Shown here: positions 1,973-25,969 of the stretch, piece by piece
Position numbering within the stretch: the stretch's first letter is position 1
Layout of the letters: every line of letters begins with the position of its first letter
Virus record (IMG/VR): IMGVR_UViG_3300032285_004554
Coordinates: 1-25,969 of that record
DNA length: 25,969 nt
Strand: one strand, 5' to 3'
Source: a virus
Program-made: the position numbers and the translations under genes
Notes under the pieces: model-generated
What the model saw: the letters and a program-made list of their open reading frames with translations, nothing else
The model's database searches: none
What the model was told of the DNA's origin: nothing

Positions 1973-3541
1973 TTATTCCATTGAGATGCTAAGCTTTCGC
2001 ATAGCGGTTTCTATTGTTTGGGTTTCGCCCTGATCGTTAAGCATGACTAGCTTGCCGCGGGCTTGTTTACGCATGGTCTGAAGATCTTCCTCGTGCGAAT
2101 GGGCAAAAGGAATAAACTCATCCAACTCTGCTAATATATCCTTATCGGATATTTCTTTACCAACATCAAATGCCCTGAACAATGCAGATTTAACCACATC
2201 CTCAATCTCGGCACCTGTGAATTCATCTGATTCAACAACAAATTTCTTTAGGTCGAAATCTGAGGGGTTACGGCCATATTTGGTTAATACCACATTGAAT
2301 ATCTCACGACGTTCCTGATCGCTAGGAAGGTCAACCCAGAATAACTGGTCAAACCTACCCTTACGAATAAGTGGCGTTGGGAGTATGGTGTGATCGTTTG
2401 AGGTTGCCACAATGAACGCAGGATTAGTCCTGTCATTGAGCCAACCAAGAAACGTACCAAAGATACGTGAACTTACACCTGTGTCACCCTTACCAGAAAC
2501 TGCATCCTTACTGAGACTCTTTTCTATCTCATCAATAAGTATAACGCACTTCCCAATGCTCTCTATGACCTTGATGGCTTCACGCATATTACGCTCACTG
2601 TTACCAACATGAGAATCAAATATAGATCCCATATCGAACTGGAACAATGGGCAATCAAACTCCTTAGCAATAGACTTGCTCACAAGAGTTTTGCCCACAC
2701 CAGGCACAGAGGCCAGCAATATACCCTTTGGTAGGGGTAACTTGTAGTCTCTTGCATCCTGTGAATATGCCTTTTTCCTAGAGCGAATCCAACGCTTTAA
2801 GCCGTTAAGCCCACCCACATTATCAAACGATATATCAGATGGGATATAGGTTAGCAGTCCGTTTTTCTTCAGCTGCTGAATCTTCTCATCGAATACCGTA
2901 CCCACAAATGGCTGTTCAAAGCTCTTCGTGGTGGTGTATGCCATAGCAAAAGCATTCTCAATTTCACCAAAGGTCATACCCTTGGCTGCTTCTACTGCCG
3001 CTTCTTTGATTTCTTCAGGAACCACTAGGGCGTCCATTTTATTGTCCTCCCGGGCCTTGTTAACAGAATCAATAATAAACGCTAGACGCTCCTCTATGCT
3101 CTTTGCACCAGGGAGATCGTAGTCTATCAACTGAATCTCTTTTTCCATTTCCGCGGGTATTGCGAATTTATGGCCAACAAGAACCAACATGTTACCCTTG
3201 GTCTTTAGAATATTCCAAAGGTTCCTGAGCAGGCGGATGTTAATCACCTTGTCGAAGTGAAGGTGGAAGTCTTTTAGGATAAAGATATTATCCTCTTCTC
3301 TGTAGCTCTGCAGATACTTGAGAAGCTCTGTGCTGTTATTTAGCCCTTCTGGGTGAATTTGATTTGTATCTTTAAGATTAACCAATCCACGTTGGGCATC
3401 CCAGGTGTGTATCTTTGTTACCTCATCCGTGGAGAATAGCTCCAGGATATCTTTTACTACCCTCTCCTCCTCATGGGTTAGGATGAACAGGCTAGGATAG
3501 TGTGCTTTGTAATAGTTTTTGAATTTTTGTGTGAATTCCAT
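1973..3541 (-). CDS. Ycf46-like AAA+ ATPase
   Basis: 522 residues. The N-terminal part (about 1-230) starts with a Y-P-S-L-F-I-L-T-H-E-E-E-R segment characteristic of Ycf46 proteins, whose N-domain resembles a degenerate ATPase fold. The C-terminal AAA+ module has Walker A SVPGVGKT (278-285), Walker B VILIDEIE (333-340), sensor 1 FIVATSN (376-382), an arginine-finger region LIRKGRFD (391-398) and sensor 2 GAEI (443-446), so it should hydrolyse ATP and assemble as a hexamer. Ycf46 is known from plastids, cyanobacteria and many bacteria; its substrate is not established. Here it heads a coupled set with DUF3150-like and DUF1257-like genes. The start ATG 3541 follows the upstream TAA by one base. 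Confidence 0.85.
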   Translation of the reverse strand: MEFTQKFKNYYKAHYPSLFILTHEEERVVKDILELFSTDEVTKIHTWDAQRGLVNLKDTNQIHPEGLNNSTELLKYLQSYREEDNIFILKDFHLHFDKVINIRLLRNLWNILKTKGNMLVLVGHKFAIPAEMEKEIQLIDYDLPGAKSIEERLAFIIDSVNKAREDNKMDALVVPEEIKEAAVEAAKGMTFGEIENAFAMAYTTTKSFEQPFVGTVFDEKIQQLKKNGLLTYIPSDISFDNVGGLNGLKRWIRSRKKAYSQDARDYKLPLPKGILLASVPGVGKTLVSKSIAKEFDCPLFQFDMGSIFDSHVGNSERNMREAIKVIESIGKCVILIDEIEKSLSKDAVSGKGDTGVSSRIFGTFLGWLNDRTNPAFIVATSNDHTILPTPLIRKGRFDQLFWVDLPSDQERREIFNVVLTKYGRNPSDFDLKKFVVESDEFTGAEIEDVVKSALFRAFDVGKEISDKDILAELDEFIPFAHSHEEDLQTMRKQARGKLVMLNDQGETQTIETAMRKLSISME

Positions 3542-4414: not shown

Positions 4415-6109
4415 TCTGATGTCAAAGATACTATAGAAAAACTTTTCCAGGTTGGTACCAAGGATGCTGTTTTTCGTGCTCGACAGCTGATGTTTTCGGT
4501 ACTTCCGCCCTCTCATTTTGTCGAGAACTATTTGTTCGATAATGAGGGGAGGCTTCAAGATTTAACTGATTTCCCGATGCTTAAACATGTGTATGACCAC
4601 ATGCCACAGAAACTGCTCCTTAAGTGTAGTCGTAAGACTTTAAAGAGTACACTTTTGAGTAACTTCGTGTGCTTGAATATGTTGAGATGGAACTACTACA
4701 AGATGCTCTATATTGGCCCTCAGGAATTAACTGTTAAGTATTTCTCTAGTAATTACCTTCCACCCAGATTTGATAGCCCTAAGGTTAAGAATATGTTGGT
4801 GAAAGGTTGGGATAAGAATGATGTGTTTGAAAAAATTATGGGCGATACCAGAAGCAGTATCTTGTTTCGTTATGTTAAAGATGATGCTACGCGAGTCCGT
4901 GGACCTGCGGTTGATTGTATTGTTTATGACGAGGTGCAAGACATGATGTATGACCAGATTCCTATTATCCAGGAAACTATGGCATTGAGCCCTTACAAAA
5001 GAGAAATCTTCGCAGGTACTCCTTTGGATAGCACGAATACTATTCATAGTTTATGGAAAACAACGAATCAGCTTGAGTGGATGATGCGCTGTGGATGTGG
5101 TCATTGGAATAGTCTCACAGAGGGTAATGACCCAATGAAAATGATTTTGGAGCACGGTTTGAGTTGTTCTAAGTGCTCTAAACGTATTAATGCAAGAGAT
5201 GGTGAATGGGCGGCAGGAAATCCTACTAACTTCCTGATGACTGGTTATCATCTAGCCCAGCCTATACTGCCATTCTTTAATGAAACTGAAAAAGAGTGGA
5301 AAGAAATTTATGAAAAATGTACTAGTGGTAAGTACGATCATAAAAAGATAATGAACGAAGTGTTTGGGCTTACTTTTGATATGGGCACAAAACCCATCAC
5401 AGAAGAAGAACTTCGCCGTGTTTGTGTATTAGGTAAGATGTTGGATAGTGATGGTAAAAAGCTTATTCATGAAAAGAACCGACCAATGTATAAGATATAC
5501 ACGGTTGGAGTGGATTGGGGTGTTTCTATGGTTCAAAGCAGAACTATATGCACCGCAGGAGCCATGAGAAACGATGGAGTGTTTGAGGTTTTCTATGTAA
5601 AGATATTCAATGGATTTGATCATGAAGGGCATATTAGAAACATCTCAGAATTAGCTAATGCTTATAATGCCTTTTGTGTGGCTGACTCCGGTCCTGACCC
5701 TATCAGAGGAATTAAACTGTGTGAATTAACAAGCCCTACACGTTCGCAATTAGCAACATATAGGAGAAGTAAAGTTATTCAGTATTTTGATATGGGAGAT
5801 TACGATTGGAGGCAAAACCGCTGGGTGCTACATAGATCTGATGTTATTTCATTAGTTATACGACAAATAAAGGCAGGTAAAATATTGTTCCCTAATTGGG
5901 AGGATGTGTCCGACTATATGCAGGACTTATTGAATGTTTATGTAGAAGTAAAGGATGGTATGTACGGTCAGGAAATGTTCTATAACCACAACCCTAACCA
6001 GCCTGATGATGCAATGCACAGTCTTGTGTTTGCTGTTTGCGCCGCCTACATGGCCGCTGGAGATATTAGTCTCCAGGGCGCAAGTAGTAGTGCAAGAGAT
6101 GTTATTTAA
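4406..6109 (+). CDS. terminase large subunit (DNA-packaging ATPase/nuclease)
   Basis: 567 residues. It pumps phage DNA into the procapsid and cuts concatemers. ATPase part: Walker A-like LLKCSRKTLKST (about 71-82), which is the diverged RKT/ST form seen in terminases, Walker B CIVYDEVQDM (171-180) with its acidic pair, and motif III FAGTP (202-206). Between ATPase and nuclease lies a probable zinc knuckle, CGCGHWN (229-235) and CSKCSKR (254-260), as in GpA-like terminases. The RNase H-fold nuclease begins with YTVGVDWG (about 365-372, first metal-binding Asp), and VADSGPD supplies a second acidic residue near 427. It is one of few plus-strand genes, has no SD, and its last codons overlap the convergent gene 6106-7227 by 4 nt. 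Confidence 0.92.
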   Translation: MSHSDVKDTIEKLFQVGTKDAVFRARQLMFSVLPPSHFVENYLFDNEGRLQDLTDFPMLKHVYDHMPQKLLLKCSRKTLKSTLLSNFVCLNMLRWNYYKMLYIGPQELTVKYFSSNYLPPRFDSPKVKNMLVKGWDKNDVFEKIMGDTRSSILFRYVKDDATRVRGPAVDCIVYDEVQDMMYDQIPIIQETMALSPYKREIFAGTPLDSTNTIHSLWKTTNQLEWMMRCGCGHWNSLTEGNDPMKMILEHGLSCSKCSKRINARDGEWAAGNPTNFLMTGYHLAQPILPFFNETEKEWKEIYEKCTSGKYDHKKIMNEVFGLTFDMGTKPITEEELRRVCVLGKMLDSDGKKLIHEKNRPMYKIYTVGVDWGVSMVQSRTICTAGAMRNDGVFEVFYVKIFNGFDHEGHIRNISELANAYNAFCVADSGPDPIRGIKLCELTSPTRSQLATYRRSKVIQYFDMGDYDWRQNRWVLHRSDVISLVIRQIKAGKILFPNWEDVSDYMQDLLNVYVEVKDGMYGQEMFYNHNPNQPDDAMHSLVFAVCAAYMAAGDISLQGASSSARDVI

Positions 6110-7227
6110 GCCTTACCAAAGCCAATAACTCTATCTTCTTCTTTATCTTCTTTGTGACGATTATCTTCGTCTAAATAATAGATGTCAGCAATAGACATAC
6201 TCTCTGTTGCGGTATGTTGTATACCTAGAGAGTCTATTAATTTCTGACTATCTTCTACCGATAATTTCTTGAACTCATGACTGACTTTCAACCTGCCTTT
6301 TCTTAACAAGGCCTTATCAAGATTTTCCTTTTTGGTGTTGAATGTAGCAATAATACTTACATTCAAGGTACTGCTTATAAAGCTATCCGTAAGATTAAGT
6401 ATGGTTGATACCAATGATGAGTTTCCTCTATCTTCTTCCCGGGATAATAGTGCCTTTTCTGCGTCTTCTATAACAAGAATCATGTTCCTATTACTCATGA
6501 GCAGCGGCAGGAAGTTTGGCGATGTCAGGCTATCAATAAGGCTAATAGGGATATAAACAATCTTTCTATTTTTTACTGTTGATAGCAGATGTTTGATATA
6601 CGAGGATTTACCTGTGCCTGGATCCCCATAAAACAGGTATAAACCAGAGGATTTATTCTTTAATGAGTCTATAACACTATCATGTACTTCTTTAAACTCA
6701 GTACCGTAATTCAAATCAAGGTTAGTGTCTATTACAGGCACATCTAGTGGCCGTAAATCTGTATCCCCATGTTCGCTTACTAATAGGTATATCTTTGCTT
6801 CTGCTTCATGTTTGAACTTAGACAACTCCTCACCTAACTTTTTTAGTTTTTCAGGGGAGCCACCACAAGCCTGAACAGAGCAGGTTTTTACTTGTTTAGG
6901 TTTATTAAGATTATAACTTTCTTCGCTAATGTACGGCAGATATTCTCTTGATCTTCCGTAATCGCTAACCTCAAGAATAATATCCAGATATTCTCCTTTA
7001 CCTAGCCAGAATCCTGATTCTGATAGTTTCCCCCCTTTAAACGCAAATTCTGAATTTAATGGATCAAAATTATCAGATATAAACTGGCTAGTCTTTTCTA
7101 AATCAAGCGGATCTCCAACGTATACCTTAGATGGTAATGTTCCGTTTTCTTTATTATATAAGTATTCTACTCTAGTGTCACCTAATCCAGACGGACGGTC
7201 GAATAGGTCTGTGTGTGCTTTTTTCAT
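6106..7227 (-). CDS. AAA+ family ATPase
   Basis: 373 residues. The N-terminal 170 residues are unassigned and include a Cys pair near CSVQACGGS (about 116-124). The AAA+ core has Walker A GDPGTGKSS (201-209), Walker B ILVIEDAE (250-257, acidic but without the usual D-E order), sensor 1 IIATFN (292-297) and ALLRKGRL (306-313), where the conserved R-K-G-R finger is kept. This resembles the BCS1/classical AAA group rather than clamp loaders. The C-terminus is short, charged and probably disordered. It is convergent with the terminase with a 4-nt overlap and follows the 7230-7784 gene by 2 nt, so it is expressed with that gene. Its substrate is unknown. Confidence 0.8.
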   Translation of the reverse strand: MKKAHTDLFDRPSGLGDTRVEYLYNKENGTLPSKVYVGDPLDLEKTSQFISDNFDPLNSEFAFKGGKLSESGFWLGKGEYLDIILEVSDYGRSREYLPYISEESYNLNKPKQVKTCSVQACGGSPEKLKKLGEELSKFKHEAEAKIYLLVSEHGDTDLRPLDVPVIDTNLDLNYGTEFKEVHDSVIDSLKNKSSGLYLFYGDPGTGKSSYIKHLLSTVKNRKIVYIPISLIDSLTSPNFLPLLMSNRNMILVIEDAEKALLSREEDRGNSSLVSTILNLTDSFISSTLNVSIIATFNTKKENLDKALLRKGRLKVSHEFKKLSVEDSQKLIDSLGIQHTATESMSIADIYYLDEDNRHKEDKEEDRVIGFGKA

Positions 7228-7801: not shown

Positions 7802-7873
7802 TGGCAGAGGCAGGAGTTGAACCTGCTGTCTCAACGTTATGAGCGTTGCGAGATACCGTTTCTCTACTCTGCG
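7802..7873 (-). tRNA. tRNA-Met (CAU), initiator-like
   Basis: Full cloverleaf of 72 nt: acceptor CGCAGAG/CTCTGCC with a C1xC72 mismatch, D-arm GAGA-AACGGTA-TCTC, anticodon arm CAACG-CTCATAA-CGTTG (anticodon CAT), T-arm GCAGG-TTCAACT-CCTGC, discriminator A, no encoded CCA. The unpaired 1-72 position and the A11:U24 pair are marks of bacterial initiator tRNA, but the three G:C pairs at the base of the anticodon stem are missing. A CAU anticodon modified to read Ile AUA is the other possibility. It stands alone, 5 kb from the other tRNAs. Confidence 0.9.
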
Positions 7874-12213: not shown

Positions 12214-12299
12214 TGGTGGGCAGAGAAGGACTCGAACCTTCGAAGGCTAATGCCAGTAGATTTACAGTCTACCCCGTTTGACCGCTTCGGTATCTACCC
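12214..12299 (-). tRNA. tRNA-Tyr (GUA)
   Basis: 86 nt including an encoded CCA. Acceptor GGGTAGA/TCTGCCC, discriminator A, anticodon GTA in the loop CTGTAAA, a long variable arm (class II, as expected for bacterial Tyr), and T-arm GAAGG-TTCGAGT-CCTTC. Confidence 0.95.
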
Positions 12300-12309
12300 A
12301 TTAAATTTG

Positions 12310-12382
<73 letters not shown>

Positions 12383-12383
12383 G

Positions 12384-12458
12384 TGGTGCACGATGAGGGA
12401 ATCGAACCCCCGACCTTGTCCGTGTAAAGGACCTGCTCTACCGCTAAGCTAATCGTGC
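12384..12458 (-). tRNA. tRNA-Val (UAC)
   Basis: 75 nt including encoded CCA. Acceptor GCACGAT/ATCGTGC, anticodon TAC in loop TTTACAC, T-loop TTCGATT, discriminator A. One base separates it from tRNA-Ala. Confidence 0.94.
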
Positions 12459-12472
12459 ATTAAAATGTAATC

Positions 12473-12546
12473 CGGAGTTGACGAGGCTCGAACTCGCAAC
12501 CCCCGCCGTGACAGGGCGGTGCTCTGACCAATTGAGCTACAACTCC
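12473..12546 (-). tRNA. tRNA-Asp (GUC)
   Basis: 74 nt. Acceptor GGAGTTG/CAACTCC, anticodon GTC in loop CTGTCAC, anticodon stem CCGCC/GGCGG, T-arm GCGAG-TTCGAGC-CTCGT, discriminator G as required for aspartate. CCA is not encoded. Confidence 0.94.
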
Positions 12547-12563
12547 AGATAAATGATTATATA

Positions 12564-12634
12564 CTACCCCGCATGGATTTGAACCATGAATGTTAGTGCC
12601 AAAAACTAAAGTGTTACCGTTACACCACAGGGTA
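12564..12634 (-). tRNA. tRNA-Gln (UUG)
   Basis: 71 nt. Acceptor TACCCTG/CGGGGTA (weak U1:A72 pair, typical of tRNA-Gln), D-arm GTGT-AACGGTA-ACAC, anticodon TTG in loop TTTTGGC, T-arm CATGG-TTCAAAT-CCATG, discriminator G. CCA is not encoded. Confidence 0.93.
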
Positions 12635-12722
12635 ATTTAAAATTGTGCAGGGTTTATTTGTATCTCGTTGGCCTGATCCTGCGTTTGCCCTTCAGTTGGG
12701 AGCGACCCAAACATCTCAAATC

Positions 12723-12797
12723 TGGCTCCTGATGCTGGACTCGAACCAACAACATGCGAGTTAACAGCTCGCTGCTCTACCATTGAGCTAATCAGGA
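12723..12797 (-). tRNA. tRNA-Asn (GUU)
   Basis: 75 nt including encoded CCA. Acceptor TCCTGAT/ATCAGGA, anticodon GTT in loop CTGTTAA with stem GCGAG/CTCGC, T-arm GTTGG-TTCGAGT-CCAGC, discriminator G. It is the first tRNA of the cluster in the direction of transcription. Confidence 0.95.
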
Positions 12798-15507: not shown

Positions 15508-16160
15508 CAGATAATTCAAGAATTTTCATCCTTGTCTGGACTATTCCTTTTTCTTGGAGTATGGTTGTGCTTTAACCGTATTCAAGAAAAACCGCATTTA
15601 TGAAATTGTCTATCCAATACACCGCTGGACTTATTGACGGAGAAGGAACCATTACTCTTAGTTATGATAATAAAAAAGATAAATGGCGAGCTCCTATCGT
15701 CTCAGTCAGCAGCACTACCCTTGAAATACTTGATGCCCTTAAAGAATCCTACGGAGGATGTATTTGTAAGCATAAAGTATATAAGGATCACCATAAGCAG
15801 GCATATAGTTGGAGATGTCCAAGAGGTGGCGCAGTTAATCTTTGCACCGGTCTTAAAGACGTCTTACTTGTACCTGAAAAGGCTTATCGCGCAAAAATGA
15901 TTTCAGATAAGTATCCTAAATGTACACCTAGAAACGGTAAATACACAAAAGAACTTTCTGAAGCCAAATCTGAGTTTGAATATGATTTTTTCCATCCTAG
16001 TAAGCCATAGCACTTTCGTGATTTAGGCTCCTATGAGTCTCTAGCCAGCTTACTCCTTTCGGATTCACCGGACGGTGTTAGCATCAGCATTACCTGGAAG
16101 CTTTCGCCGTTTGAGCGGTTTTTTCACTGGATAATTACTTATCCAGGCGACTCTTTATGA
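15508..16160 (-). mobile_element. group I intron in the tmRNA T-loop
   Basis: 653 nt. The 5' exon ends in U and the intron ends in G, as group I requires. P1: exon CGAU pairs with intron GUCG, giving U.G at the splice site. P2: GGATAA-GTAA-TTATCC, perfect. Core hairpins: CACCG/CGGTG, TCC-GAAA-GGA and CAC-GAAA-GTG. The P7 strands are visible as AGAGACTC (near 16040) and AATAGTCC (near 15547), where GACT pairs with AGTC. The endonuclease gene lies between the two P7 strands, so it occupies the P8 side loop. The subgroup was not determined. Confidence 0.85.
15600..16010 (+). CDS. LAGLIDADG homing endonuclease, antisense to its intron
   Basis: 136 residues with one LAGLIDADG motif, YTAGLIDGEGTITL (about 7-20), whose acidic residue before the final G would bind the catalytic metal. 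Single-motif enzymes of this size work as homodimers on near-palindromic targets of about 20 bp. The later part (VSSTTLEILDALKESYGGCI, SWRCPRGGAVNLC, KAYRAKMISDKYPKC) fits the family's beta-beta-alpha repeats. It would cut intron-less tmRNA genes at the T-loop so that the intron is copied in. The gene is on the plus strand, opposite to the intron RNA, so it needs its own promoter; none is clear. The leader CAAGAAAAACCGCATTT is A-rich without SD, like phage genes here. Confidence 0.9.
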   Translation: MKLSIQYTAGLIDGEGTITLSYDNKKDKWRAPIVSVSSTTLEILDALKESYGGCICKHKVYKDHHKQAYSWRCPRGGAVNLCTGLKDVLLVPEKAYRAKMISDKYPKCTPRNGKYTKELSEAKSEFEYDFFHPSKP

Positions 16161-19865: not shown

Positions 19866-21023
19866 TTAGTTGTTTGTAGGTAATAGTTGTACAGGAGAGC
19901 ATAAATCGGATTCCAGGAATGTCAACCCAACAAATATAGTATTGTTGTTTAAACCTGCCTGTTGGTTTCCGGATATATCTGTGTAACTACTCAGGGTAGG
20001 AGTTACATTTGTGTCTTGAATAGGCTGCTGCACAGAATTTCCGTCAAAAAGATAAATATTACTGCCTGCTGTGAATTTAAAAACACCATTTTCATCTGGG
20101 GGTATTCCATTAATATATGAAATAATATCACCACAGTCATGGTATGCGTCAGGTAAAAATCTAGTTGTACAGTCCATCTGTAAACCTAACCGATAACCTG
20201 CGGTCATGTTTATTAAGTTATTATTAAAATTTATAGCGTAGTTATACCCAGGAGCAAATTCTATATCTCCTGTTATACCTGTGCTTGTTGCTGACTGCAA
20301 TGGAAGAGATGGAACCAATGTATCGGTGTTTTTAGCTCTAATGGTTAATGGTGCTCCACTAGAATTAGCTGACCACAATCCAGTAAAAGTCCATCGAGCG
20401 CCAGGCGAAGGATTACCAGAGGCTCCTGTTATTCCAGCAACTAAACCTCCGTTAAAAACAATTTCATAATTTTGGGGATTAGCTTGTATTTGTGGTCCCC
20501 ATGTGGGATTACCTAATCCAACACTCACTGTGTTTTGACCAACAGTGGCCTGTCCCTGAAAGTTCATTATGTTTTCTATTTTGAAACCTCCACTAACATA
20601 ATTAGGATTACTTGAGATACTAACAACCCCATTCCATGCTCCACCAAACTGATAAACAACTGCAGGCTCTACAGGAACAGCAACGTTAAAAACAGTATTT
20701 CTTGTTACCCTTTTTAAGTCCTCACCTAGAACCAATAAGCTTCCTGCGGTGTTTCTTAAATAAAGCGGAAATTTTATAGCATCCACACCAGAAACACCGT
20801 GCTCTGCATAGTTATAGTCAAAAAAGTTATCAGTGAAAATGACAGTTATATCTGTGGAATTAACTACCAACGCTGTTAATTTAGCTGTAGTTGGGTTTGT
20901 TGATGTGCTGATATTCAAAGACAAGTCAAGTATAGCTCCATCTGGAATCTCTGAAACCGTCTTACCCTCAATTAGTGGGTAAGCTCTCAGCGCGTTTTCA
21001 TTAAGCCATTCTAATACTTCCAT
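19866..21023 (-). CDS. tail-type structural protein, paralogue A
   Basis: 385 residues. It opens MEVLEWLNENALRAYPLIEG, and the block L-x-W-x-N-E-N-x-x-x-x-Y-P-L is shared with the next two genes (21025 and 21798). After it comes IPDGAILDLSLNIS, also matched in the relatives, and then a long beta-rich, Asn/Thr/Ser/Gly-rich body without catalytic motifs (FEPAVVYQFGG-like and GNPSPGARWTFTGLWS segments). Proteins with this front end are typical of phage tail-fibre or baseplate clusters. The shared front probably docks to the same virion site while the bodies differ. Coupled to gene 21025-21795 by TAA-T-ATG. Confidence 0.7.
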   Translation of the reverse strand: MEVLEWLNENALRAYPLIEGKTVSEIPDGAILDLSLNISTSTNPTTAKLTALVVNSTDITVIFTDNFFDYNYAEHGVSGVDAIKFPLYLRNTAGSLLVLGEDLKRVTRNTVFNVAVPVEPAVVYQFGGAWNGVVSISSNPNYVSGGFKIENIMNFQGQATVGQNTVSVGLGNPTWGPQIQANPQNYEIVFNGGLVAGITGASGNPSPGARWTFTGLWSANSSGAPLTIRAKNTDTLVPSLPLQSATSTGITGDIEFAPGYNYAINFNNNLINMTAGYRLGLQMDCTTRFLPDAYHDCGDIISYINGIPPDENGVFKFTAGSNIYLFDGNSVQQPIQDTNVTPTLSSYTDISGNQQAGLNNNTIFVGLTFLESDLCSPVQLLPTNN

Positions 21024-21024
21024 A

Positions 21025-21795
21025 TTATGCAGATAATGTTGTTAGGGCTAGGCTGGATGTGTTGGCTGACGCCTGACCAACAACATATATTGAGAGATTC
21101 TGATTACTGATAGACTTAAACTTAACTATGTCATTTCCACTTAATGTAATATTATTGTTTAAAGGTTTAGTTAGGTTTATTTGTTTGAGTGGGTGTATTT
21201 TGCTATTCGTTGGCACAACAGCGTTGGCAACAGCATTAAATGTAATAGACGCCGGTGAAGTAGAGGTGTTATAAAATATTGTATTTACACCAGCGGATGT
21301 CTGGTAAACTATACCACCTATTTCTGTGAAACTATCTGCCATATCTTGGTTGGCTCCCAAAACGAGACTACCATAAGAATTATCTAATCGGTATACTGCA
21401 TCATTTAGGGGAATACTTCTAACTGTTGTTGGTATAAACGGAAGTGAGGTGTTTAATTGCTCTCCTACATAACTAGCCCAAGCGGTGTTAGCTCCCTCAC
21501 CTATAGTTAAACACCCAAGATACCTATCCCCACCAGAGTCATACATTCTTAAATTCTTTGTACCTACATAAAAGTCAGTCTTTTGATATCTTGTGGTTAC
21601 TTCGCCGTTATCAAATATTATTGTAAATTCCATATAATCTTCACCCACCAGCAAAGATGTAAACACAGGTATAAAATTATCAAATTGTATAAATGACGCA
21701 TCAACCAACAGGTCATTTATTTGAAATGGCGCAAAAAACGGGTAATTGGTTAATCCATTTTCATTTTGCCAGCCTAATGTAGTATATTCAGACAT
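21025..21795 (-). CDS. tail-type structural protein, paralogue B
   Basis: 256 residues, the shortest of the three. It opens MSEYTTLGWQNENGLTNYPF, followed by INDLLVDASFIQFDNFIP, aligned with the equivalent part of paralogues A and C. The rest is beta-rich (DNGEVTTRYQKTDFYVGTKN, LTKPLNNNITLSGNDIVKFK). No enzyme motif. Its start follows the stop of paralogue C by 2 nt and its stop precedes the paralogue A ATG by 1 nt, so the three are translated from one message. Confidence 0.7.
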   Translation of the reverse strand: MSEYTTLGWQNENGLTNYPFFAPFQINDLLVDASFIQFDNFIPVFTSLLVGEDYMEFTIIFDNGEVTTRYQKTDFYVGTKNLRMYDSGGDRYLGCLTIGEGANTAWASYVGEQLNTSLPFIPTTVRSIPLNDAVYRLDNSYGSLVLGANQDMADSFTEIGGIVYQTSAGVNTIFYNTSTSPASITFNAVANAVVPTNSKIHPLKQINLTKPLNNNITLSGNDIVKFKSISNQNLSIYVVGQASANTSSLALTTLSA

Positions 21796-21797
21796 AA

Positions 21798-23240
21798 TTA
21801 TCTATAGTAGAGATATGGCTGAAGGGTTGAAACTCCTCCAGATACACTATTAAAATAAACTGAAAAGGTGTCTCCATCAACAATATTGATAGGTACCGCA
21901 TATCCTAAGCCCTCGTTATTATGCGATGGGTAAACACTGTCATTCACAGTTCTTACTGTGGTAGAGCTGTTAGGTGGAATAACTATTCTCTGAAATCCCT
22001 CCACATTAGTTGTGCTTAGTGCGCCTGACAAAAGTTTAGTGGTTCGCAATAAGGATACAGTTACCGTTGCTGTTCCTGTGTTTACATATATCAAAGATAC
22101 TGAGTATTTTTGTTTAGCGGTCGCAGGGTTTATTGAGGCTTTTCCTATTAGTACCGTCGAATCCGAATTAGCGGTAATCGGAATTACCGGTGTTATACTG
22201 CTGTAAGTAAAGAATTGCGGCCACCACATAAACTCTGGATCTGTTACAGAGTATAAATTGCTGGCGTGATATGCTGATTTTGTATAATAGCTATCTAGGC
22301 CCGCTGCGGATGGGTTGGATCCTGGTAGTGTTCCTCTTTTTATATAAATAGGTGAAATAGGTGGGAGTACTGAATTTCTTGCATTACACAAAGTATTAAG
22401 GGTTATAGGGGCCCCACTGGTAATTGAATTTGCGGTTATTGACAGACCCCCCAGATCAACCAGCTGATTTGAATTATCTATATTTTGCTGGCTTTGGAAA
22501 GATAGTGGCGCAACACCCACCATGAATAAATTACCCTGCAACGCAGGTAGATAATTATAAGTATTATGAGAATCAACAGAGGTAGAAGACTGATAAAATG
22601 GTACAGCTCCATCAATATATCTGATGACCGGGGTGGGGCAATTATTGAATAGAGAGGACTTGTCACCCAGACTCATAACACTAGCAGAATCTATAACGCC
22701 AAAATCAATTTTTTTCGGTGAGTCTACTGGCCTAGATTTTATAATATTAGACAACACCCCAAAATTTACATCTCCTGTTAACCTAGCTCCTCTGTAATTA
22801 ATACTGGTGACTCCAGGAGGGGTATAATAAAAAACGGTCGATTCCTCTAACTCCATTGCTGCCGGCTCAAAAGTGTAAACACCAGATAGCTCATTCAAGG
22901 CTTCTAAAGTACCAATAATTAAAGTACCGCTAGTGAACTTCATTGTTTCTGTAAGCCTTAATACTGTAAATTCTGAAGTTATAGTGCCGTAAAATATACC
23001 AATAGTTTCAAAAAAAGAATTAGATAATTTAGCTGCTAACGTTATTCTTACATCAGCACTATCCACGTATATCTGCCTAACAAATATATTCTTTCTGTCC
23101 AAGGTTGTGGTTATGCTTGCTCCTACCAATAATTCGTTACTCACCTTTCTTCCGTCTATAGCCGTAAGCGAAGATTCCGCCTTTAGCGGATAACTTCTGA
23201 ATTGATTCTTGTTTAAAAATTCTAATGAGCTTAAAGACAT
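21798..23240 (-). CDS. tail-type structural protein, paralogue C
   Basis: 480 residues. It opens MSLSSLEFLNKNQFRSYPLK, with the motif in the form L-E-F-x-N-K-N-x-x-x-x-Y-P-L, and ELLVGASI in the second shared block. It is the largest paralogue; its C-terminal part (about 370-480) has a repeating beta pattern (NTGTATVTVSLLRTTKLLSG, PPNSSTTVRTVNDSVYPSHN, GDTFSVYFNSVSGGVSTLQP) like a carbohydrate-binding or fibre-tip sandwich. A role in host attachment is inferred from position and composition only. It lies 14 nt after the stop of the giant Ig-repeat gene. Confidence 0.7.
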   Translation of the reverse strand: MSLSSLEFLNKNQFRSYPLKAESSLTAIDGRKVSNELLVGASITTTLDRKNIFVRQIYVDSADVRITLAAKLSNSFFETIGIFYGTITSEFTVLRLTETMKFTSGTLIIGTLEALNELSGVYTFEPAAMELEESTVFYYTPPGVTSINYRGARLTGDVNFGVLSNIIKSRPVDSPKKIDFGVIDSASVMSLGDKSSLFNNCPTPVIRYIDGAVPFYQSSTSVDSHNTYNYLPALQGNLFMVGVAPLSFQSQQNIDNSNQLVDLGGLSITANSITSGAPITLNTLCNARNSVLPPISPIYIKRGTLPGSNPSAAGLDSYYTKSAYHASNLYSVTDPEFMWWPQFFTYSSITPVIPITANSDSTVLIGKASINPATAKQKYSVSLIYVNTGTATVTVSLLRTTKLLSGALSTTNVEGFQRIVIPPNSSTTVRTVNDSVYPSHNNEGLGYAVPINIVDGDTFSVYFNSVSGGVSTLQPYLYYR

Positions 23241-23254
23241 AACTATACGTTAAT

Positions 23255-25969
23255 TTATACCTTCCTAACCGGTAATTGTACAGTCTTTGTTACTGTGGAT
23301 GAACTCCAGCAAGCGTCTGAATTCGGAACAAACGAAACGCTTAACGTCTGGTTTACTATAGTGCCCGAAGATTGTCCAGCCAGAGGGAATACCGTCCCGA
23401 GCGGTGGGGTATATGTATATGTACCACCTACAGTTGTATTGGAGTTGGCGGTTAGAACAGCTATTGCGTTTAATTCACTACCGCTCAACCCAGCGTTTGA
23501 CGTTATTTCGCTAGGGGTGGGCCATAGTAATGTTATAGTTCCAGCAATTACGTTTAATGTATTGGTGGAAGTGGTTATCGCGAAATTTGCATTGTCTGTG
23601 GGCGAGAATGTTATTGAAAATACGAAGCTGCCTATGGAGAGTGTTGAGGTTGGATAAAGGGAATATGAAAAAGTTCCGGAATACGGAGGTGTGTGCCCCT
23701 CCGTGGCTGTTAATAAATTGGAAGATACCGCAGTTGCTCCGCAATATAAATAACTAGGGGAGGCCCAGTTTATTATAGCCATTGCCTTTGTTACGCTCAG
23801 TGATACAGCCAATATAGAATCCGCGTAGTCCTGATCTGCTGATGTGAACGTGGCGGTTAGTATGGTTATACCCGCAGTGAGTATTGTCCCCGCTGGGGGC
23901 GAATACGATATACTGCCGGATGCGGTGGTGGTCTGCGTAGCGCGGAGTTGCGTGGAACTAAGTGCCGTACCGTAGCTAATACTTTCTGGGGTCGCCCAAT
24001 TTAATATAGTAGGTAATTTATTTAATTCCAAAATAATATTAAAGTTTTGAGATGTTCCGGCTGAATTACTTGCGGTAGCAGTCACGGAATAAAATTGGCC
24101 CACATCACTACTCGATGGTGTGCCTATAATATTACCATAGCAGTCTATACTTAGTGACGCTGGTAATCCTGTGGCCACAAAGTTAGTAGGATTATTCAAA
24201 GTATTAAATTTTATTAGTGGGTTATTCGCTGTATACGGTCCAGACGAGGTATACACAGATGGTTTGAACTTGTACGTGGTGGGTCCTCCTGTTATCGAAG
24301 TAATCGTTGTGGTGGCAGATATAATTAATGGTACTCCTGTATAATTGATCGTATACCTGGTATTTGATGATCCTCCGGTATAATTATCGGTGATAACTAT
24401 ATCGTAATTTCCGGATGTATTTGTTGAAATTGGGGAACCATAGAGGTTACAAGTAGCTCCTACAGTGCCGTTAAATAATAATCCGGCCGGTATATTTCCA
24501 GAGGTCAAAGCATAAAAATTAGAAGAATCTTGATTTGATATGGCGATACATACGTTGTCTCCCTGAGCTATAGGTATATTTTGAGTTGTATCACTAATAA
24601 TAATTTGAAAACCTACTGACGCCGATGATCTAGCGTTGTTGGCAGTTACATTCACATTATATGTACCTGAGCCTATCGACATTACTGGACCACCTATGAT
24701 TGCTCCGGTTAAATCGTCTATTCTTAATGGTGTTGGTAGTCCTGTGGCCGAGAAGGTTGTTGGGAATCCGGAACACACCATAGAAATTAGAGGAGAGGTA
24801 TTTGTATACACTCTGTTTTGATAGTCAGGAGGTTTGATAGTATAAACATTACCCGCAGTTGGCGAAGAGATGGTGACCTTGTCGGCTCGATAGTCTATTA
24901 CAAAACTAAAAGGTATGGATACACCATTTTTGCGGGCATATATAGTAATTGGGTATTTGGTCGTTGTATTTAGTGTACTGGTCCCCGATATATTACAGGC
25001 GGCTGTGCCAGAGGTATTAAAGGCTAGACCTTGAGGTAGATTTCCAGAATATGTATAGCTGTCAGAAGCTCCTAGACCAGTTATCTTATAGCAGTAAGCT
25101 GAGTTATTATACACAACATCAGATACCGGCGAGGCTGAAATATAAATAGTTATAACTATAGAAGATTTGGCTCCAGCTATGTTTTTTGCTGTTATGGTCG
25201 GGTAGTAATATCCCTCGGTAACAGAAGTAGATCCTATTATTTGGCCATTGCTATTAATACTAAGCCCTGTAGGTAGTCTATCTGCTGTATACCCTGTAGG
25301 GGAATTATCGGCCAGTACCTGTAATAGTGGTGCGACTGTAGTATAATTAATTGTGCTATATGTGGGGGATACAATATAGAATGTTTGCTGACTAGCGGGG
25401 TAAGTTATTTTAGGTGCTGGTATATAATTTATATTAAACTGACGTTTAGATATAATTTTTCCTTTTGTTATTGTTAATATTATGTGGTAAGTACCAGTGG
25501 TGGTTTGTGTTAGCACACCGGATGGATAATATAAGTGACAAGAACTATTCACGCTAGAGTTTACATATAACCAAGAAGGTAGTGATTCACCAGACACGGC
25601 GGTCACTGCGAATGAAACGTTGGGCACTGTTGTTAGCGCATTTAAATCTGTGAATTGATAACAAAAAGCTACTCCCTCGTATGCGTTTATAACCTCCGGT
25701 GTGGAATTAAGTAAAATATTTAATGTTACCGCTGTGGAGTTGCCTGCCGAGTTGGTAGCGTATATGTTTGTAGGGTAGTTTCCTGCGGTGGTTGTGGTTA
25801 TTTTACCAATAATATTTCCATAATTATCTATTGATAGTCCTGCAGGTAGTCCTGTGGCGGAGAAAGACGTAGGCAAATTATCTGCCGCAACAGTAAGAAG
25901 GGGGTGGGCGACTGTAAAAGTTGTGGATTGCCCAAAAGTATTATTAAAATCTGGAGGATATACGGTTAT
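23255..25969 (-). CDS. giant Ig-like repeat protein, 5' end beyond the window
   Basis: 904 residues are visible and the frame is open to the right edge, so the true start is outside (the TTG at 25876 is an internal Leu). Two types of repeats alternate. Type A is a putative-Ig (He_PIG) repeat, as in FSATGLPAGLSIDNYGNIIG, with T-A-x-N-x-A-G near its end (four copies). Type B is similar but starts with a Cys (FCYQF, YCYKI, VCIAI) and has a second Cys before N/H-I/L (three copies). The last 253 residues (23255-24016) are three repeats of another Ig-like type, NWATPESISYGTALSSTQL and relatives, resembling Big_3_5. Such proteins are usually long adhesive fibres or decoration proteins of the virion. 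Confidence 0.85.
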   Translation of the reverse strand: MTVYPPDFNNTFGQSTTFTVAHPLLTVAADNLPTSFSATGLPAGLSIDNYGNIIGKITTTTAGNYPTNIYATNSAGNSTAVTLNILLNSTPEVINAYEGVAFCYQFTDLNALTTVPNVSFAVTAVSGESLPSWLYVNSSVNSSCHLYYPSGVLTQTTTGTYHIILTITKGKIISKRQFNINYIPAPKITYPASQQTFYIVSPTYSTINYTTVAPLLQVLADNSPTGYTADRLPTGLSINSNGQIIGSTSVTEGYYYPTITAKNIAGAKSSIVITIYISASPVSDVVYNNSAYCYKITGLGASDSYTYSGNLPQGLAFNTSGTAACNISGTSTLNTTTKYPITIYARKNGVSIPFSFVIDYRADKVTISSPTAGNVYTIKPPDYQNRVYTNTSPLISMVCSGFPTTFSATGLPTPLRIDDLTGAIIGGPVMSIGSGTYNVNVTANNARSSASVGFQIIISDTTQNIPIAQGDNVCIAISNQDSSNFYALTSGNIPAGLLFNGTVGATCNLYGSPISTNTSGNYDIVITDNYTGGSSNTRYTINYTGVPLIISATTTITSITGGPTTYKFKPSVYTSSGPYTANNPLIKFNTLNNPTNFVATGLPASLSIDCYGNIIGTPSSSDVGQFYSVTATASNSAGTSQNFNIILELNKLPTILNWATPESISYGTALSSTQLRATQTTTASGSISYSPPAGTILTAGITILTATFTSADQDYADSILAVSLSVTKAMAIINWASPSYLYCGATAVSSNLLTATEGHTPPYSGTFSYSLYPTSTLSIGSFVFSITFSPTDNANFAITTSTNTLNVIAGTITLLWPTPSEITSNAGLSGSELNAIAVLTANSNTTVGGTYTYTPPLGTVFPLAGQSSGTIVNQTLSVSFVPNSDACWSSSTVTKTVQLPVRKV

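Follow-up and report, generated by a model that had tools for sequence, protein, structure and literature searches.

The window analysed here, a virus record of 25,969 bases (IMGVR_UViG_3300032285_004554), carries on its minus strand three adjacent open reading frames (ORFs) that encode proteins of 385, 256 and 480 residues, termed A, B and C. As a first-pass annotation had described, the three share an N-terminal motif (WLNENALRAYPL in A, WQNENGLTNYPF in B and FLNKNQFRSYPL in C) and a second block (ILDLS, LVDAS and LVGAS, respectively). Comparison with relatives places them in a five-gene array, whose slots are numbered purely by gene order: slot 1 (~300 residues), slot 2 (a giant protein), slot 3 (C), slot 4 (B) and slot 5 (A), in the order of transcription. 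The window holds the last three genes and the end of a fourth, the slot 2 protein E. The recognized elements, including a shared N-terminal domain (N-domain) and a second domain (D2), are listed below, with model confidence given as the predicted local distance difference test (pLDDT):

19866..21023, minus strand: slot 5 protein A, 385 residues; ORF with orthologues 59–97% identical at the same position in five relatives
20595..21023, minus strand: N-domain of A, residues 1–143; N-domain profile E 3e-23; model block pLDDT 79–95 over residues 1–120
20331..20591, minus strand: ~87-residue stretch of A, residues 145–231, from the alignment; low-confidence model (block pLDDT 43–61), weak fold matches only
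19995..20276, minus strand: D2 of A, residues 250–343; D2 profile E 9e-23
21025..21795, minus strand: slot 4 protein B, 256 residues; ORF with orthologues 56–96% identical in five relatives
21370..21795, minus strand: N-domain of B, residues 1–142; N-domain profile E 4e-21
21055..21291, minus strand: D2 of B, residues 169–247, the weakest of A, B and C; iterated D2 profile E 6e-9
21798..23240, minus strand: slot 3 protein C, 480 residues; ORF with orthologues 50–92% identical in five relatives
22779..23240, minus strand: N-domain of C, residues 1–154; N-domain profile E 4e-37; model block pLDDT 71–95 over residues 11–140
22368..22781, minus strand: D2 of C, residues 154–291; iterated D2 profile E 6e-11; poorly modelled stretch
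21801..22211, minus strand: extension of C, residues 344–480, predicted jelly-roll or β-sandwich (VIA-align and Foldseek)
23255..25969, minus strand: slot 2 protein E, C-terminal 904 residues only; frame open to the window end, N-terminal part past the edge

Alignment of residues 1 to 84–93 of A, B and C yields nine invariant columns, and profile-profile comparison (15–16 sequences per gene) links the N-domains at 96.1% for A–B (E 3.3e-9, 117 columns), 95.9% for A–C (E 5.1e-9, 135 columns) and 85.8% for B–C (E 5.4e-6, 103 columns), with column-reversed controls at or below 0.8% in all 10 pairs among five profiles. Because the matches cover 103–135 columns against such controls, the common part is a full domain of ~145–155 residues; the shared front end of 15–20 residues described earlier is real, but was drawn too narrowly. 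An iterated N-domain profile matched 396 ORFs at E ≤ 0.01. Among 2559 ORFs without a match to it, one more appeared at E < 1 (0.0094), and its position is slot 2 of its array. ORFs with an N-domain match and those recognized through D2 only together occupy at most five positions per locus. On the strength of the profile comparisons, reversed controls, profile searches and this ceiling of five positions, a chance likeness of A, B and C was rejected, and the common N-domain supports the proposed origin of the genes by duplication. AlphaFold models were available for A and C and are usable only for the two N-domains and for the extension of C. The N-domain of A is predicted as a helix, six strands, a helix and a strand (block pLDDT 79–95), and that of C has its elements in the same order (71–95). 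For these two proteins, the models agree with related rather than unrelated N-terminal folds, a result that is only partly independent because the two alignments share seven rows.

Searches with A and with the terminase led to related contigs of 64–182 kb, as well as to a 5.7-kb and a 7.9-kb fragment. The order and spacing of A, B and C are unchanged in five relatives, and the N-domain profile finds five copies in 7/7 close relatives, namely A, B, C, a ~300-residue gene and a giant gene; the upstream family member (slot 1) encodes 298 residues. Five matches are also present in all four further contigs of 150–204 kb, each searched whole. A scan of viral contigs with slot-1-type proteins returned 84 relatives among 174 candidate stretches, 80 of which were kept. 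The same kind of scan over bacterial and archaeal genomes, with 37 candidate stretches, returned a single locus (L171), which lies in a Planctomycetaceae metagenome-assembled genome (MAG); no host is claimed because this contig may be a mis-binned phage. Five adjacent copies are complete in 74 loci (67 contigs, a figure that depends on seven same-contig pairs chosen by hand from the loci tables), all 74 on a single strand and with median gaps of −1 to 3 bases; the first possible start codon was taken throughout, so some array lengths and gaps are off. Fewer than five copies occur in 26 loci, the window included, many of which, not all, are cut by the contig or by the fetched stretch. L155 has two copies and ~2.6 kb after them; L072–L074 have four copies each and an unassigned stretch where L071 shows a D2 match; in L158, L167 and L168, slots 3–5 lie further off, and the contigs of L158 and L168 (G008 and G010), searched whole, contain five matches. 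Judged from gene arrangement, the five-slot set is conserved in fixed order across a large group of uncultured tailed phages. The three paralogues first described are thus related as proposed, in a family that has five adjacent members.

In the nearest large relative, slot 1 is preceded by genes for proteins of 782, 187, 854 and 538 residues. The 538-residue protein matches the PHROG ‘baseplate wedge subunit’ (phrog_6, E 6.3e-8, in one genome), and the 854-residue protein carries a Laminin_G_3 (LamG) domain (E 1.1e-12). Among 72 loci with at least 9 kb before slot 1, upstream homologues were found for the wedge protein and the LamG protein in 69 each, for the 187-residue protein in 71 and for the 782-residue protein in 72, the 782-residue gene ending a median of 11 bases from slot 1. 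Because these homologues lie upstream in 69–72/72 loci, the five-slot set is assigned to a baseplate or tail-fibre module. A docking role of the N-domain, as first suggested, is plausible since the genes share this domain and lie in that region. The tail module of one relative also encodes, upstream of the wedge gene, an RNA polymerase sigma-factor-like protein (L142:1342–1977; phrog_351, E 2.6e-8); in Salmonella phage Arash, a sigma factor likewise lies among structural genes.

The bodies behind the N-domains had been called unrelated-looking, and direct profile comparison is indeed negative (A–B 0.2%, A–C 3.9%, B–C 0.5%); intermediate relatives, however, link them through D2. With bridging profiles built from slot 1 (D) and from a set of divergent members (X), the comparisons reach 96.6% for A–D, 97.5% for A–X, 99.1% for D–X, 68.1% for C–D, 84.1% for C–X, 14.7% for B–D and 26.7% for B–X. 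Reversed controls stay at or below 0.7%, except for D–X at 18.1%, and therefore the B–D and B–X values alone prove nothing. A D2 profile seeded from slot 1 and iterated for six rounds detects, in the sixth, 15 A, 14 B and 15 C bodies at E < 0.001; in total, it finds 364 of 389 bodies at E ≤ 10, 360 of them at E < 0.001, and none of the 389 reversed bodies. By slot, over the 67 contigs, D2 is detected in 67, 67, 67, 44 and 66 proteins of slots 1 to 5, and the N-domain in 67, 17, 67, 66 and 67, counts which indicate that the N-domain has diverged in slot 2 and D2 in slot 4. D2 without an N-domain match was seen in 66 ORFs, of which 63 are second in their array; the remaining three comprise truncated ends in L003 and L006 together with slot 4 of L071. 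The bodies of A, B and C are probably related through D2, by a link that depends on intermediates, and the profile evidence for a two-domain core is firm in A and slot 1 but less so in B and C.

Extensions beyond the core differ by slot. The window part of slot 2 is 78% identical to residues 994–1897 of the 1897-residue relative in L002; immunoglobulin (Ig)-like He_PIG repeats (PF05345) were matched at E 5.3e-29 for an 873-residue part, and part of the protein matches a PHROG tail protein (phrog_8763, E 3.3e-6). In seven close relatives, slot-2 frames span 1901–3885 residues, with N-domain matches at E 5.5e-12 to 9e-7; He_PIG is above cut-off in window slot 2 and in three of seven other slot-2 proteins scanned. 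Residues 344–480 of C are modelled as a jelly-roll near CBM22 modules (VIA-align Z 9.0, root-mean-square deviation 3.2–3.8 Å, 113–119 residues, 12–13% identity), with spore-surface and capsid jelly-rolls within one Z unit. Foldseek gives one Protein Data Bank (PDB) match for C at E ≤ 0.001, and Pfam gives none up to E 1; the predicted jelly-roll is a common arrangement and no proof of sugar binding. Fold searches of viral libraries gave low TM-scores. The VIA-align matches for A (many ATPase barrels, along with GTA and T5 pb9 chains; Z 4.1–5.5) mostly cover the low-confidence insert and were left unused. In one slot-3 protein (L102:12461–16147), long serine-rich linkers accompany an FGE-sulfatase-like domain (PF03781, E 1.4e-15), a match that scans of five further slot-3 proteins (C, L100, L103, L128, L129) did not return. 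FGE-type folds occur also in variable phage tropism proteins. Slot-1 proteins (e.g. L007:1084–1980) have a conserved cysteine-rich stretch, consensus CCTPCSGC, followed at the C-terminus by coiled-coil-like heptads, as seen by eye; the stretch is a possible metal site or set of disulphides ahead of a stalk. Slots 4 and 5 usually lack an extension of more than 60 residues. The diversification seen consists of the ~87-residue insert in A (alignment of six phages: in the window, L002 and L007, and absent from L003, L005 and L006), widely differing slot-2 lengths and the FGE-sulfatase domain in slot 3 of L102.

Pfam and PHROGs gave no convincing match to the core for A, B and C, six C orthologues, ten divergent members (PHROGs) or 50 N-domains. 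The exceptions were isolated and weak: B matched SSL_OB at E 0.0079 (17 bits against a cut-off of 27), and the best values among the 50 N-domains were E 0.0085 for a PHROG and E 0.0039 for Pfam, each from one of the 50. Two N-domain profiles had no meaningful sequence match among PDB chains (best E 0.51 and 1.1); the fold-search lists for the A and C models were filled by parts outside the N-domain, so they bear little on whether its fold is of the T4 gp10 (XD) kind. A tblastn search of 50,697 phage records with A, B, C, slot 1 of L007, L078 and L100 and slot 3 of L100 returned no convincing core relative: matches in 3 records at E 2 and in 46 records (best E 0.2; aligned residues 50–129, motif absent) were taken as chance, and those in 247 records involved, in nine of the ten listed, a ~40-residue extension stretch (289–331) outside the core. 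The best-ranked terminase relatives, Arash (29%) and Vibrio phage D69 (28%), contained no N-domain match when searched whole, nor did plasmids match slot 1 of L077. The open-access literature yielded no account of the five-gene set under general search terms, which is weak evidence of absence.

We favour, with modest confidence, a reading in which A, B and C occupy slots 3–5 of an ancient paralogous five-set behind the wedge module, the cores forming a heteromer at the baseplate periphery and the extensions reaching the cell surface. Each protein would consist of an N-domain (~150 residues), D2 (~75–145 residues) and an optional slot-specific extension: Ig-like repeats in window slot 2, a jelly-roll in window slot 3 and the cysteine motif with its apparent coiled-coil-like tail in slot 1, with little as a rule in slots 4 and 5. 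The cores would join one another and the wedge to form a heteromeric collar or arm base, and the extensions, chiefly those of slots 2 and 3, would extend to the host cell surface and bind the host. The five positions would be non-interchangeable and would diversify by domain insertion and lengthening, not by body exchange. We infer in this way a presence in the virion, a core that serves as the attachment part, host binding by the extensions and non-equivalent core subunits. A bolder version, which we offer tentatively as possible rather than probable, makes the paralogues obligatory, non-interchangeable subunits of a hetero-oligomer, one each per wedge; their two-domain module, absent from the searched libraries, would grow extensions in fixed slots and define the apparatus by which a large group of uncultured phages adsorbs.

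Several observations weigh against the baseplate-peripheral heteromer. The proteins are putative virion components, and no tail sheath or tube was identified by profile, so the contractile tail rests on the wedge homologue. Mean pLDDT is 66.2 for the model of C and 63.4 for that of A, with poor middle parts. The profile finds the N-domain in just 17 of 67 slot-2 proteins, He_PIG above cut-off was not found in four of the seven other slot-2 proteins scanned, and L171, the sole bacterial-MAG locus, has only slots 1 and 2 with ~9 kb beyond. In its first round, the D2 profile detected 12/15 A bodies at E < 0.001, and the corresponding counts for B (2/15) and C (1/16) are low; the search was still growing in the last round, from 348 to 360 at E < 0.001, and had not converged, so profile drift is possible. 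The D–X reversed control of 18.1% also lies near the B–X value. A quick tree of 93 N-domains groups by slot, in favour of slot orthology (10 label changes, minimum 4, shuffled mean 57.2), though its starred branches require the slot-2 and the slot-3 label to change at least twice each.

An alternative that we consider unlikely assigns the cores to an internal baseplate ring or a tail-tip scaffold, and receptor binding to the upstream protein of 854 residues, which bears LamG, or to that of 782 residues. The Laminin_G_3 match, the fixed order of the five slots and the scarcity of long extensions in slots 4 and 5 would all suit such a structural role, whereas the giant slot-2 frames of the seven close relatives, some with Ig-like repeats, and the jelly-roll or FGE-type domain in slot 3 suit surface-exposed arms.

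Improbable by comparison is the model put forward in the first-pass annotation, in which unrelated receptor-binding bodies are exchanged by recombination on one docking domain. The common N-domain, the strong differences between extensions from slot to slot and the FGE-sulfatase domain in a single slot-3 protein would be expected of it, as would the few extension matches between slots, all of which join slots 2 and 3 (7 and 9 directed between-locus pairs, and three each way within a genome, two loci being from one contig). The bodies, however, have D2 in common, and best matches keep to the slot. For each copy, the best match below 60% identity in another locus was taken; ~165 residues ahead of D2 replaced the N-domain in slot-2 copies without an N-domain match, the extension start was set 80 residues past the N-domain in copies without detectable D2, and L002, L007, L006, L131 and the 26 loci with fewer than five copies were left out. 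The match fell in the same slot for 365 of the 368 N-domains that had one (370 examined), for 345 of 346 D2 (351 examined) and for 133 of 133 extensions longer than 60 residues (154 examined). Among related phages, taken as pairs with an N-domain identity of 50–95%, extensions were homologous in 145/145 slot-2 pairs, in 508/508 slot-3 pairs where both have one (five pairs have none) and in 27/27 slot-4 pairs where both have one (336 have none, two have one only); slot-5 pairs have no extension in 159 cases and one only in 22. A BLAST match to any part counted as homologous, so partial swaps within long repeat proteins could escape. The outer parts look inherited by slot, and neither the swapping of bodies nor their recombination among related phages is supported. 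Weakest of all, the idea of capsid-bound or other decoration or adhesion proteins merely encoded beside tail genes could draw on a core for which no structural homologue was found and on the Ig-like domains present on many phage surfaces, but it is highly improbable given the constant place behind the wedge module in 69–72/72 loci.

Phage host range is often pictured as evolving through exchangeable receptor-binding ends borne on conserved N-terminal docking domains. Here, five neighbours share N-domains, yet throughout a wide phage group each position retains an extension of its own kind. A wedge gene followed by five slots with the two core domains is a recognizable marker for this group, for which no relative was detected in the searched cultured-phage collection, and slots 2 and 3 are the first candidates for host binding.

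Elsewhere in the window, six clustered tRNA genes (12214–12797: Tyr, Ala, Val, Asp, Gln and Asn) and a tRNA-Met (7802–7873) are present; a 40-base stretch overlapping tRNA-Ala matches Pseudomonas phage records (95%), in some of which it is annotated as tRNA-Gly. A small LAGLIDADG-like ORF at 15600–16010 (PF00961, E 0.00058, 21.2 bits against a cut-off of 23.1) is a possible homing endonuclease or fragment. Two AAA+ ATPases (PF00004) lie at 1973–3541 (E 3.6e-25) and 6106–7227 (E 1.4e-11), the first followed by a DUF3150 protein (967–1971, E 1.5e-14).

The closest known parallels are clustered tail proteins with conserved N-terminal domains. In the Ackermannviridae phages CBA120 and S117, the co-encoded tailspikes TSP1–TSP4 build one virion-attached complex through conserved N-terminal domains and vary in their C-terminal parts (PMC11414711). 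The five-slot set resembles them in that several neighbouring tail genes encode homologous N-terminal domains followed by differing C-terminal parts. In the tailspike complex, T4 gp10-like XD domains are described in TSP2 and TSP4 only and whole tsp genes are exchangeable experimentally, whereas the five-slot set has the same core in all five proteins and each slot keeps its own extension. Alcyoneusvirus RaK2 likewise encodes a cluster of nine tail-fibre proteins, gp526–gp534, whose conserved N-terminal domains are reported to be required for assembly (PMC10253068). There, the N-domains resemble CBA120 tailspikes, seven proteins carry depolymerases and the cluster lies ~20 kb from other structural genes; the five-slot core, in contrast, has no convincing library match and lies directly behind the baseplate module. 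C-terminal exchange among related phages, a feature of CBA120- and RaK2-type complexes, was not seen in the five-slot set. The jumbo myophage phiKp24 has a complex tail-fibre arrangement (PMC9700779), and the likeness to its hyperbranched tail fibres is by description only. Finally, window slot 2 is He_PIG-rich, as are phage tail proteins with Ig-like repeats; unlike plain He_PIG tail proteins, slot 2 of its relatives has an N-domain/D2 core in front.

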